Source of the DNA: Alphaproteobacteria bacterium
Lineage (GTDB): Bacteria; Pseudomonadota; Alphaproteobacteria; JAPULJ01
DNA length: 36,278 bases
Assembly (NCBI GenBank): GCA_027295145.1
Contig: JAPULJ010000173.1
Coordinates: 1 to 36,278 of the forward strand
Direction of reading: 5' to 3'
Program-made: the position numbers and the translations under genes
In this document: positions 7,817 through 22,937 of the stretch, in pieces
Layout of the letters: every line of letters starts with the position of its first letter
How positions within the stretch are numbered: the stretch's first letter is position 1
The notes under the pieces: model-generated
Databases searched by the model: none
Told to the model about the DNA's origin: nothing
What the model saw: only the letters and a program-made list of their open reading frames with translations

Positions 7817-9441
7817 AACTTCACCCAGGGCAGCCAGGTGGCGATCCCGGGAAAGATGATGATCAGCGCGACCAGCAGCATGGCGCACGCCATGAACGGG
7901 ATCGCGGCGAGGCAGATTTCGCTAAATTTCGTACCCTTGGGCGCCACCCCCTGCATGACGAACAGCAGCAATCCGAAGGGCGGCGTGGTGAAGCTGATCT
8001 CCATCGCCAGCAGCATGATCACGCCGAACCAGATCTGGGTGACATCCAACGGCAGTCCGAAATTGAGCGTTTCGATGACCGGGAAGAAGATCGGCACGGT
8101 CAGCAGCATCATCGCGAGTTGGTCCATGAACATGCCGAGCAACAACAGGATCCCGAACATCATCAGCAGCATGACGTAGCCTGAGACGTCGAAGCTGGTG
8201 ACCCATTTGATCAGTGCATCGCTGGCCCCCGAAGCGGCGAGCACGTTGGCGAAAAGCGAAGAGCCGAGCAATATCATCAGCGCGATGATGGTGACCCGCC
8301 CCGCGCCCCACAACGACTTCCAGATGCCGCGCGCGAAAACGGCGTTTCTTTCGAAAAGCGTGCCCTCGTGCAGATGATCGTGAAGCGCGTCGGTGAAGCG
8401 CCCGAACGCCGGTGTCACTGGCCTCAGGAGAAATCGGAGCGGCGAAGTGACCGCGAGCACCAGCCCCGCCAGCAACGCGAAGACGAGGCGCGGCAGCAAA
8501 TGGAGGGTTAAAGCGAGCCAGTATCCGACACCAGCATCGTCCGAGGCTGCGATCGCGGCAGCGCGCCTCCGCGCTTCGAAGCGGGCCCGGATCGTCTCTA
8601 CCAATGGCGGGATGTAGTTGAAAATGACGGCCAGGATCAGTACGCCGACCGAGCCGTAGGCGGCTGCCTCGGAGGGTGTTGCGATGCCGCCCATGATAAG
8701 GCCGATGACCATCGCGATGATCGATACCATCGGCAGGATATCGCGCACCAACAGGATGAGGCGGGTGCGATAGGGGACGAAATCAACGTCGTAGGCCGGT
8801 GCCAAGTCGGGATTGATGGTGACGCGGACGAAGATCATCACGGTATACATCAAGGCCAGCACCACGCCTGGAACGATACCGGCGATCAGCAGTTTGCCGA
8901 TATCGATCTCGGCGATGGTACCGAGCAGAACCGCCAGCGCCGACGGCGGGATCAGCATGGCGAGACCGCCGGTGCCGAGGATCGGGCCGATCGACATGCT
9001 CTTCTTGTATCCGCGCTTGGTCATCTCCGGGACCATCAGCGTGCCGAGCAGCGCGGTCGAGCCCATTGAAGAGCCCGACAGTGTAGCCAGCGCAGTCCCG
9101 CCGGCGATGGTTACGTAGGAGAGCCGTGCCGGAACCCTGCCCATCAGCAATTCGACCGCGTTGAACATGCGGTTGGCGAGCCCGGTGTGAAAAAACAACT
9201 CGCCCATCAAAAGGAACATGGGGATCGGCACGATCGCGAAGATCGAGAGATTGGAGAAGGCGTTGTCGGTAAGCTGGAAGACGCTGGCCTGGAGATTTGC
9301 ATCGAAACTGCCAAAGCGCCCATAGATCAGGTAGGCGGTGACCGTGCACACGATGACAAACGCGATCCCTACGGGAAAGCCGATGAACATCAGGATCAGG
9401 ATCGAGCCCAGGAGAGCCAGGAGGATCCAGTACCACTCCAT
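7813..9441 (-). CDS. dctM: TRAP transporter large permease (DctM family)
   Basis: This 542-residue polytopic membrane protein imports an organic acid or similar solute, driven by a sodium or proton gradient, together with DctQ and DctP. Family features are the N-terminal GFPVGIAF and PIPMFLLMGELFFHTGL segments, SGSSMGSTALLGTLMVPEM, and the C-terminal FGLLLFVMQGVAPKG. It is about 110 residues longer than common DctM proteins because of a mid-protein insertion (about 285-385) with two more hydrophobic stretches and an Arg-rich linker; such long forms are known in the family. It starts directly next to the dctQ stop and converges on the oxidoreductase gene. The substrate is not predictable from the permease. 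Confidence 0.9.
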   Translation of the reverse strand: MEWYWILLALLGSILILMFIGFPVGIAFVIVCTVTAYLIYGRFGSFDANLQASVFQLTDNAFSNLSIFAIVPIPMFLLMGELFFHTGLANRMFNAVELLMGRVPARLSYVTIAGGTALATLSGSSMGSTALLGTLMVPEMTKRGYKKSMSIGPILGTGGLAMLIPPSALAVLLGTIAEIDIGKLLIAGIVPGVVLALMYTVMIFVRVTINPDLAPAYDVDFVPYRTRLILLVRDILPMVSIIAMVIGLIMGGIATPSEAAAYGSVGVLILAVIFNYIPPLVETIRARFEARRRAAAIAASDDAGVGYWLALTLHLLPRLVFALLAGLVLAVTSPLRFLLRPVTPAFGRFTDALHDHLHEGTLFERNAVFARGIWKSLWGAGRVTIIALMILLGSSLFANVLAASGASDALIKWVTSFDVSGYVMLLMMFGILLLLGMFMDQLAMMLLTVPIFFPVIETLNFGLPLDVTQIWFGVIMLLAMEISFTTPPFGLLLFVMQGVAPKGTKFSEICLAAIPFMACAMLLVALIIIFPGIATWLPWVKF

Positions 9442-21473: not shown

Positions 21474-21733
21474 GCGAGTGAGGTCAGCAGGCGGTCAAGC
21501 TCGCCCGCCGATTCCAGCGCCTGGAGTTCTTCGGAGCCGCCAATATGCCGCTCGCCGATCCAAATTTGCGGCACACTGGTTTCCCCGCCGGCCTTGGCGG
21601 CCATCTCGGCCCGGTGTTTGGGTCTGAAGGTGACGTCTATCTCCTCATACGCTACGCCCTTGCCGTCGAGCAGCGCCTTGGCGCGATAACAGAATGCGCA
21701 TAATCCCGTCGTATAGATCGTGATACCGGACAT
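21470..21733 (-). CDS. grxC: Glutaredoxin 3
   Basis: This 87-residue thioredoxin-fold protein has the redox motif C12-A-F-C15, TSVPQIWIGERHIGGSEEL with the cis-proline TVP-like turn, and the GG-S-E/D glutathione-binding segment. It reduces disulfides and glutathione mixed disulfides in the cytoplasm. The active site reads CAFC rather than the usual CPYC. It starts at ATG 21733 and is translationally coupled to the Nit amidase. A TATAAT on the minus strand (21799-21794) about 60 bp upstream is a possible -10 element. Confidence 0.93.
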   Translation of the reverse strand: MSGITIYTTGLCAFCYRAKALLDGKGVAYEEIDVTFRPKHRAEMAAKAGGETSVPQIWIGERHIGGSEELQALESAGELDRLLTSLA

Positions 21734-21882: not shown

Positions 21883-21910
21883 AAAAAAAGAGGGCCGGCA
21901 GAGCCGGCCC
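21883..21910 (-). terminator. Strong intrinsic terminator
   Basis: On the minus strand GGGCCGGC (21910-21903), loop TCT, GCCGGCCC (21899-21892) and then TC followed by seven T (21889-21883) form an 8-bp GC-rich stem with a U-tract. It ends transcription arriving from 22.1 kb or from the Crp gene and insulates grxC. The other strand has no U-run at the right end, so it works one way. Confidence 0.88.
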
Positions 21911-22089
21911 GAGTTTGGGGTCTGGAGAGAAGGCTCGAAAATCGAGCCTCGGGGAGGGAGCGAAAGGGAAGACATGACCCCGTGACCGGGGAGGGAGGGA
22001 TAAGCCGCAAGGGGGGGGTGCGGCTATGTGGTCACGAAATCGAAATCCTCCTTCGCGCTAACTCCGTGTGGCGGCAGTGCCGCCGACAG
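21883..22089 (-). ncRNA. Candidate Crp-controlled small RNA with C-rich loops
   Basis: The 505 bp between grxC and the Crp gene contain no convincing protein gene. On the minus strand, between a Crp-type promoter and a strong terminator, about 205 nt can form five consecutive hairpins: GGCGGC/GCCGCC (22084-22070), AGCCGCA/TGCGGCT with a loop of eight C (22025-22003), CCCCG/CGGGG (21991-21978), AGGCTCGA/TCGAGCCT (21949-21931) and the terminator stem. The single-stranded parts carry CCCTCCCTCCCC and CTCCCTCCCC. C- or CU-rich loops that pair with Shine-Dalgarno sequences are a hallmark of trans-acting sRNAs in alphaproteobacteria, such as the CcsR/cuckoo RNAs. Ends are inferred; the alternative is a long structured 3' untranslated region of the Crp mRNA. 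Confidence 0.6.
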
Positions 22090-22096
22090 GAGTGAC

Positions 22097-22137
22097 CTTA
22101 TGGGACGGGAGAGATCGGCGCTGTGACGGTCGTCACA
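22097..22137 (-). promoter_or_regulatory. Crp-type binding site with a class II-like promoter
   Basis: TGTGA-N6-TCACA at 22122-22137 is a perfect Crp consensus palindrome (extended arms GCTGTGAC/GTCACAGC). On the minus strand CATAAG (22102-22097) is a -10 candidate; the implied start near 22088-22090 puts the site centre about 40-41 bp upstream, the class II activation spacing. On the plus strand TATAAA (22153-22158) is also near but would drive only antisense RNA into the Crp gene end. The neighbouring Crp protein has the RETVAR helix known to read TGTGA. Confidence 0.65.
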
Positions 22138-22238: not shown

Positions 22239-22937
22239 TTAATTCCCGCCGGGTCCCTCGACGATCTCTTCGAGCTGATTAATATCGCTAACGAGGAGCG
22301 CATCGTCTTCTCGTTTGGCAATTCCCTTGCGCGAGAGATCGGAAAGAGCCCGGGCGACTGTTTCGCGTGTTGTCCCGGCGCGGCTGGCGACATCGGAATG
22401 GACCGGAACCGGGCGGATCGTGGAGCTATTGTCATCGCCGGCGTTCTCGCGAGCGAGACGCAGGATCTCGGCATAGACGCGGGAATAGGCGCCCAGGGTG
22501 CTGAGATCCATGATCCGATCGGTCGACCCGCGAATGATCTCGACAAGACGGATCATGACGCTGAGCGCGAATTCGGGATTTTCAGCCAAAGACTGGCGAA
22601 ATTGTTCGGGCGACATGGCTGCCACGGTGGTGTTATTGAGCGCCACCACGTTGGCCGAGCGCGGCGCACCATCGATCGCCGACAGCTCGCCGAAGACACC
22701 GCCGGCGCCGAGATCATCATAGCTCACTTCGCGTCCGGTATAGGAGTAGTTGACCACCCGAACCTTCCCGCGGACGACGAAGAACACATCGCCGGTGTCG
22801 CTGTCGCGGTCGATGATTTGCTCATCGCGGGTGAATTCACGCCAGCGGCACAGGGATTCGAGCTTTTGCCGTCCCGCCTCGGACATCGGCTCCAGAATTC
22901 CAATACCCTTGAGTGAGTGTTTCCCGGCTGCTGTCAT
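22239..22937 (-). CDS. Crp/Fnr family regulator, cAMP-binding type
   Basis: This 232-residue regulator has an N-terminal cyclic-nucleotide domain with the phosphate-binding cassette VFGELSAIDGAPRSANV (81-97), keeping G83, E84, R93 and S94, equivalent to Gly71, Glu72, Arg82 and Ser83 of E. coli Crp. A dimerisation helix follows (about 110-145), then a winged helix with recognition sequence TTRETVARAL (RETVAR at 191-196; RETVGR in E. coli). No N-terminal Fe-S cysteines of the Fnr type are present. It should bind cAMP and TGTGA-N6-TCACA sites; one lies about 100 bp past its stop. Start: ATG at 22937 with GGGGAG upstream. A palindrome GGCGGG-AATTAATT-CCCCGCC spans the stop codon and may stabilise the mRNA 3' end. 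Confidence 0.9.
   Translation of the reverse strand: MTAAGKHSLKGIGILEPMSEAGRQKLESLCRWREFTRDEQIIDRDSDTGDVFFVVRGKVRVVNYSYTGREVSYDDLGAGGVFGELSAIDGAPRSANVVALNNTTVAAMSPEQFRQSLAENPEFALSVMIRLVEIIRGSTDRIMDLSTLGAYSRVYAEILRLARENAGDDNSSTIRPVPVHSDVASRAGTTRETVARALSDLSRKGIAKREDDALLVSDINQLEEIVEGPGGN

Follow-up and report, generated by a model that had tools for sequence, protein, structure and literature searches.

Directly behind a crp-like gene, within the 36,278-nucleotide stretch of alphaproteobacterial DNA analysed here (the window), lies what is probably the gene of a Crp-activated small RNA (sRNA) that acts in trans through anti-Shine-Dalgarno sequences. Judging from sequence comparison, it is very likely that the locus yields a Crp-activated, terminated transcript. 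A Crp-regulated sRNA with anti-Shine-Dalgarno stretches had been proposed in a preliminary description of this DNA, and the proposal is supported by the recurrence of the Crp box, class II spacing, CU-rich linker and terminator in other Alphaproteobacteria. Much work on riboregulators under Crp control has been done in gammaproteobacteria but, as far as the open-access literature searched shows, not in the Rhodospirillales lineage. A crp-linked sRNA from Rhodospirillales, Azospirillum or Magnetospirillum was not found in that literature, and from their sequences the RNAs described here seem to form a family of nutrient-response RNAs that has yet to be described.

The crp locus and its promoter

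The crp-like gene (22239-22937, minus strand) codes for a protein of 232 amino acids with a cNMP-binding domain and a Crp-type helix-turn-helix (Pfam PF00027 and PF13545). The E. coli and Mtb CRP are among its closest solved relatives by sequence, and the protein scores below the NCBIfam cut-off for canonical CRP. The preliminary description had noted that the recognition helix matches the Crp box nearby; this helix reads TTRETVAR, and its R-E-T-V-A-R segment does not vary across 13 aligned Crp sequences, nor do the E-L and P-R-S-A residues of the nucleotide-binding cassette in the same alignment. The stretch that follows had been described as gene-free, and indeed nothing that could plausibly be a gene lies between the stop of crp at 22239 and grxC, which starts at 21733. 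On the minus strand the order is crp, Crp box, -10 element, predicted RNA, terminator and grxC, which lies on the same strand as the RNA unit. The source genome is a fragmented assembly with an estimated contamination of 6.8%.

The Crp box TGTGACGACCGTCACA (22137-22122, minus strand) is a perfect TGTGA-N6-TCACA site, as claimed earlier, and the only exact match in the window. Boxes with up to two mismatches are not in excess in the window (5 compared with 8.6 expected from shuffles), so the weight rests on the exact match and its setting. The -10 hexamer TAAGGT (22100-22095) is followed by a transcription start predicted at 22088, both from an alignment anchored on the box and in the preliminary description. 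Given this start, the spacing to the -10 element centers the box at -41.5, i.e., at the position characteristic of class II Crp promoters. The class II spacing suggested before thus holds, and the same geometry recurs in a set of 40 anchored loci, most of which share a TANNNT hexamer at this distance from the box. In the promoter of the window, a -35 element was not recognised.

The predicted RNA

The predicted sRNA is CU-rich, about 205 nt long, and occupies positions 22088-21884 of the minus strand, as delimited by the predicted start and the terminator. It begins with a 5' hairpin (22088-22067) whose core, GGCGGC-ACU-GCCGCC, is at 22084-22070. A perfect Shine-Dalgarno-like element, AAGGAGG (22053-22047), comes next and is paired in the predicted fold. 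A 7-bp hairpin (22025-22003) then has eight consecutive C residues (22018-22011) in its loop. Two anti-Shine-Dalgarno linkers had been reported, and both are in place: UCCCUCCCUCCCC (22000-21988), which is unpaired in the predicted fold, and CUCCCUCCCC (21960-21951), which is partly paired; each contains CCCTCCC. The last linker, UUCUCUCCAGACCCCAAACUC (21931-21911), is the CU-rich element common to the family and abuts the intrinsic terminator (21910-21884), whose stem (21910-21892) is formed by GGGCCGGC and GCCGGCCC around a TCT loop and is followed by the U tail TCTTTTTTT. The terminator can fairly be called textbook, as it had been. A hydrophobic or other plausible open reading frame (ORF) was not found in the RNA, which is probably non-coding.

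The fold is considerably more stable than those of dinucleotide shuffles, with a z-score of -6.7 when the box is included and of -7.6 for 22088-21884 alone. The minimum-energy and centroid structures both consist of the 5' hairpin, a long-range domain around the C8 hairpin, another hairpin and the terminator. The five successive hairpins envisaged in the preliminary description are not reproduced, since in both structures the C8 hairpin is nested in a long-range stem. The C8 loop itself is present in the window but is confined to it; among relatives it is only echoed by the C-rich loops of loci L022 and L017.

The unit recurs behind crp in Alphaproteobacteria

The organism of the window is the sole member of its order among the genomes compared, which is why distant crp homologues were used. 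A class-wide search gave 29 crp loci and an alignment-based scan 80 named ones, mostly from metagenome-assembled genomes of Rhodospirillales, with 101 distinct loci altogether. Other approaches gave little: a scan of genome contigs with a single protein query returned no crp matches, a DNA-level search of relatives returned only fragments of the terminator and box, and a search of plasmids for Crp found only more distant Crp proteins. Two loci with an alphaproteobacterial crp, L104 and L108, come from records named Mycobacterium sp. KBS0706 and Anaerolineae bacterium, which are probably misnamed or contaminated assemblies.

A TGTGA-N6-TCACA box with at most one mismatch is present within 250 nt past the crp stop in 34 of the 101 distinct loci. 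Two control regions, a 250-nt stretch before crp and the positions 400-650 nt behind it, contain such a box in none of them. We aligned 40 boxes, including that of the window and a few weaker ones added by eye, all picked blind to the -10 element. In this alignment, A occupies offset 38 in 36/40 loci and T occupies offset 42 in 34/40, which defines the TANNNT hexamer, while offset 49, the likely start, is A in 22/40; together, these features place the center of the box at -41.5. The 40 loci are phylogenetically non-independent, though the Crp tree on which they lie covers many families. L086, L095, L103 and L111 proved to be additional members, recognised by weaker boxes or by small ORFs, whereas some half of the crp loci compared have no recognisable unit. 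In L032, a degenerate array of GTGATGGCGATCCCC repeats, which look like multiplied half Crp boxes, precedes the real box (offsets of approximately 100-280 downstream of crp).

The 3' module is the other recurrent part. A CU motif such as CCUCC or UCUCC is found no more than 45 nt ahead of the stem in 31 of 36 family terminators and in 14 of 87 control terminators, i.e., other terminators of the same loci; the Fisher p value of 2e-13 overstates independence because the family rows are mutually related. A few of the stems counted fall within an ORF or immediately behind one and are probably not true terminators, and ten units have no recognised terminator. In the Azospirillaceae copies the 26-nt linker ACCTCCTTATGAGGCTCCCTTCATCT is invariant and similarity ends past the terminator. 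The preliminary description had looked to relatives for conservation of the stems; of these, only the terminator is kept across lineages, with varied stem sequences, and the internal stems differ in sequence and position. Three near-identical terminator units stand in tandem behind the crp-linked RNA of L030 (offsets of approximately 210-350 downstream of crp).

Many of the sister units differ from that of the window in coding for a small protein. A hydrophobic ORF of 29-33 amino acids follows the promoter in 22 of the 40 anchored units, and hydrophobicity sharply divides these 22 from the other 18, among which is the window. Such ORFs are found at 0-400 nt downstream of crp in 29/109 loci, where shuffles predict about 1.8, and at 400-800 nt in 1/109. 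Searches of Pfam and NCBIfam gave no family for the small peptides. In all 12 peptide pairs compared dN is lower than dS, and on this sequence evidence the small proteins of the sister loci (29-34 amino acids) are under purifying selection. Non-coding copies with box, -10 element, CU linker and terminator intact are scattered over many distinct branches of the Crp tree. Two cultivable organisms represent the types: the unit of Caenispirillum bisanense is non-coding and its box is perfect, while that of Aestuariispira insulae has the small ORF, with linker and terminator unrecognised.

Crp boxes, Hfq and cyclases elsewhere in the genome

Exact Crp boxes number 16 in the genome of the window, compared with 4 for a reversed-pattern control. 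One of them (contig G000:C209, 3174-3385; L146, 1501-1712) contains the identical 16-mer, has the -10 element TACATT and precedes a hydrophobic ORF of 38 amino acids, MSWRKSAIFAVDCAAVLLGVLIAAPFVLILTSPFLFLY. Another (G000:C23:24649; L150) is followed by a hydrophobic ORF of 41 amino acids, MSRDDTFWGRLGQRVLFGSAYLMVALIATPALLLLALPFLL. These two units imply that membrane peptides linked to Crp boxes exist in this genome away from crp. The contig of the latter, G000:C23, also contains a copy of the alphar8 RNA (see below) at 8649. A further exact box (G000:C66:1799-1814; L151), with the -10 element TAACGT, leads into a protein-kinase-like gene; the highest-ranking match for a nucleotide cyclase is some 350 nt away. 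The genome has an Hfq gene. Matches to the domain of class III nucleotide (adenylate/guanylate) cyclases number 63, which is very many, in an assembly that, as noted, has an estimated contamination of 6.8%; cAMP signalling and Hfq-type riboregulation are thus plausible in this organism.

Comparison with known RNAs

In Escherichia coli, Spot 42/SpfP and CyaR are sRNAs that serve carbon metabolism under the control of CRP. Of the two, CyaR is activated by CRP and uses a CCUCC-type loop, and Spot 42 also codes for a small protein. They are enterobacterial and are not known for such a linkage to crp, and the RNA of the window has no Rfam match to them. The CcsR/cuckoo RNAs of Rhodobacter, which the preliminary description had named as a functional parallel and which were compared here through the Rfam scan, share CU-rich loops with the RNA of the window, but we know of no Crp promoter or crp linkage for them. 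The best functional parallel for the coding sister loci is VcdRP of Vibrio cholerae, a CRP-controlled RNA which codes for a 29-aa protein and has a 3' pairing site that needs four consecutive C residues (PMC8672173). The parallel covers CRP control, the small protein and the C-stretch pairing site; however, vcdRP is repressed by CRP (PMC8672173), whereas the geometry of the crp-linked units predicts activation, and the copy in the window has neither an ORF nor any Rfam or sequence link to VcdRP. The 22 anchored units that have an ORF downstream of a box and -10 element, and hence a promoter that would be controlled by Crp, are best read, by analogy with VcdRP or Spot 42, as dual-function RNAs; the window has such a promoter and no ORF in the transcript.

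The preliminary description could not place the RNA in a known family, and this assessment stands: no Rfam 15 family reaches its gathering threshold in the window, and 13 sister loci match tRNAs only. The nearest family is alphar8/suhB/MmgR (RF00519), with 24.8 bits compared with a cut-off of 41 (E 0.0055, 501-nt query). Alphar8 RNAs, which include MmgR of Sinorhizobium and SisA-D of Caulobacter, are found in every alphaproteobacterial order except Rickettsiales, typically adjoin the gene of N-formylglutamate amidohydrolase (FGase), act via the 10-mer UUUCCUCCCU and, in Caulobacter, are linked to carbon starvation (PMC12559287). Sub-threshold suhB matches of 24-30 bits were obtained for 12 of the 18 loci tested, the window included, and the 12 suhB matches that a 64.5-kb scan gave were all located in the crp-linked 3' module and covered the model in full (1-77). 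In the window the match includes UUCUCUCCAGACCCCAAACUC and follows the alphar8 order of hairpin, CU seed and rho-independent terminator. Both groups of RNAs have a weak hairpin, a single-stranded CU-rich anti-Shine-Dalgarno seed, AAACUC/U, a GC-rich terminator and a tie to carbon economy. The crp-linked RNAs differ in scoring below the cut-off, in having a seed other than UUUCCUCCCU and a longer 5' part, and in their Crp box and crp linkage in place of an FGase neighbour. The canonical alphar8 copies of related genomes bear UUUCCUCCCU; in the window UUCUCUCCAGACCCC stands instead, and the neighbours are crp and grxC, although the FGase neighbour is typical rather than universal. Simple membership in alphar8 was rejected on these three grounds, i.e., score, 10-mer and neighbour gene. 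It looks as if the crp-linked RNA works as alphar8 RNAs do.

Alternative explanations

The RNA may nevertheless be a diverged alphar8 member that was brought under Crp control. Of the sub-threshold Rfam matches to the 3' module, suhB is the best-placed one in most crp-linked units, and the order of weak hairpin, CU seed, AAACUU and terminator is shared. We consider this origin unlikely, given the low score and missing 10-mer: the genome has two true alphar8 copies elsewhere (48.3 and 45.8 bits), and the window, which ranks third genome-wide, shares the level of 24 bits with other sites. These true copies also allow for a different relationship, in which the RNA would be a sponge whose GA-rich AAGGAGGA pairs with the UUUCCUCCCU seed of the alphar8 RNAs of the genome. 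Caulobacter CrfA is a precedent for such a sponge (PMC12559287), and the AAGGAGG element could serve the purpose. It is, however, an ordinary Shine-Dalgarno sequence that is paired in the predicted fold and is not conserved among the non-coding sister RNAs, which makes the sponge very unlikely.

The same element has another possible history. Its offset from the box is that of the small-ORF ribosome site in sister loci, and what follows it, only GTG ACC ACA TAG (22035-22024), recalls the M-S-T-T-W starts of the peptides. With the peptide present in half of the sister loci and two Crp-box-driven hydrophobic ORFs elsewhere in the same genome, the RNA could be a decayed dual-function transcript that lost an ancestral ORF for a membrane peptide of about 31 amino acids, so that the promoter, Shine-Dalgarno site and terminator still present would have little function. 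The intact non-coding copies in many separate lineages, the unusual richness of the CU linkers of the window and the strength of its fold speak against decay, to which we give a small chance, about as small as that of alphar8 descent. Finally, instead of a free sRNA the transcript could be a long leader of grxC, controlled by Crp and ending in an attenuator. It is true that grxC is downstream on the same strand and that L022 keeps the complete order of crp, box and RNA, grxC and CN-hydrolase. But the terminator is strong and U-tailed and is separated from grxC by about 150 nt, and the unit is retained where the next gene is not grxC. Behind crp, grxC was detected only in L022, L055 and L069, and the latter two, the nearest Crp relatives of the window in the tree, have neither box nor unit; tRNA genes follow the unit in L019 and L024. 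Since the downstream genes differ in this way, the unit is not tied to grxC, and the attenuator was rejected as a very poor candidate, no better than the sponge.

Proposed mode of action and implications

The Crp-activated trans-acting sRNA therefore remains our preferred reading. At high cAMP, Crp bound to the box at -41.5 would recruit RNA polymerase to a promoter with a -10 but no recognisable -35 element, and a transcript of about 205 nt would be made from about 22088 to the terminator, which ends at 21884. In this RNA the linkers, which are CU-rich and for the most part single-stranded, would base-pair with the Shine-Dalgarno regions of target mRNAs where these are rich in G, possibly joined by the C8 loop. 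This pairing, probably with Hfq, would block translation, and the RNA would act as a repressing branch of the Crp regulon. Its family would comprise transcripts that are linked to crp and driven by Crp in Rhodospirillales-type Alphaproteobacteria; many members also code for a membrane peptide of about 31 amino acids. Points against this reading are that anti-Shine-Dalgarno pairing is generic, that stems other than the terminator are not conserved, and that the unit is missing from the nearest Crp relatives and from roughly half of the loci.

It is possible, though we would put it at slightly under even chances, that an ancient unit of Rhodospirillales-type Alphaproteobacteria couples crp to its own Crp-driven transcript, which over evolution alternates between a purely anti-Shine-Dalgarno sRNA and a dual-function RNA with the membrane peptide, and that the two functions are split in the genome of the window. 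If so, this genome keeps the sRNA beside crp and Crp-box-driven membrane peptides at other loci. The coding and non-coding units constitute a natural series for the gain or loss of a small protein by an sRNA, and a crp-linked RNA kept at such depth would offer a handle on the post-transcriptional control of carbon and cAMP responses in the Rhodospirillales lineage.
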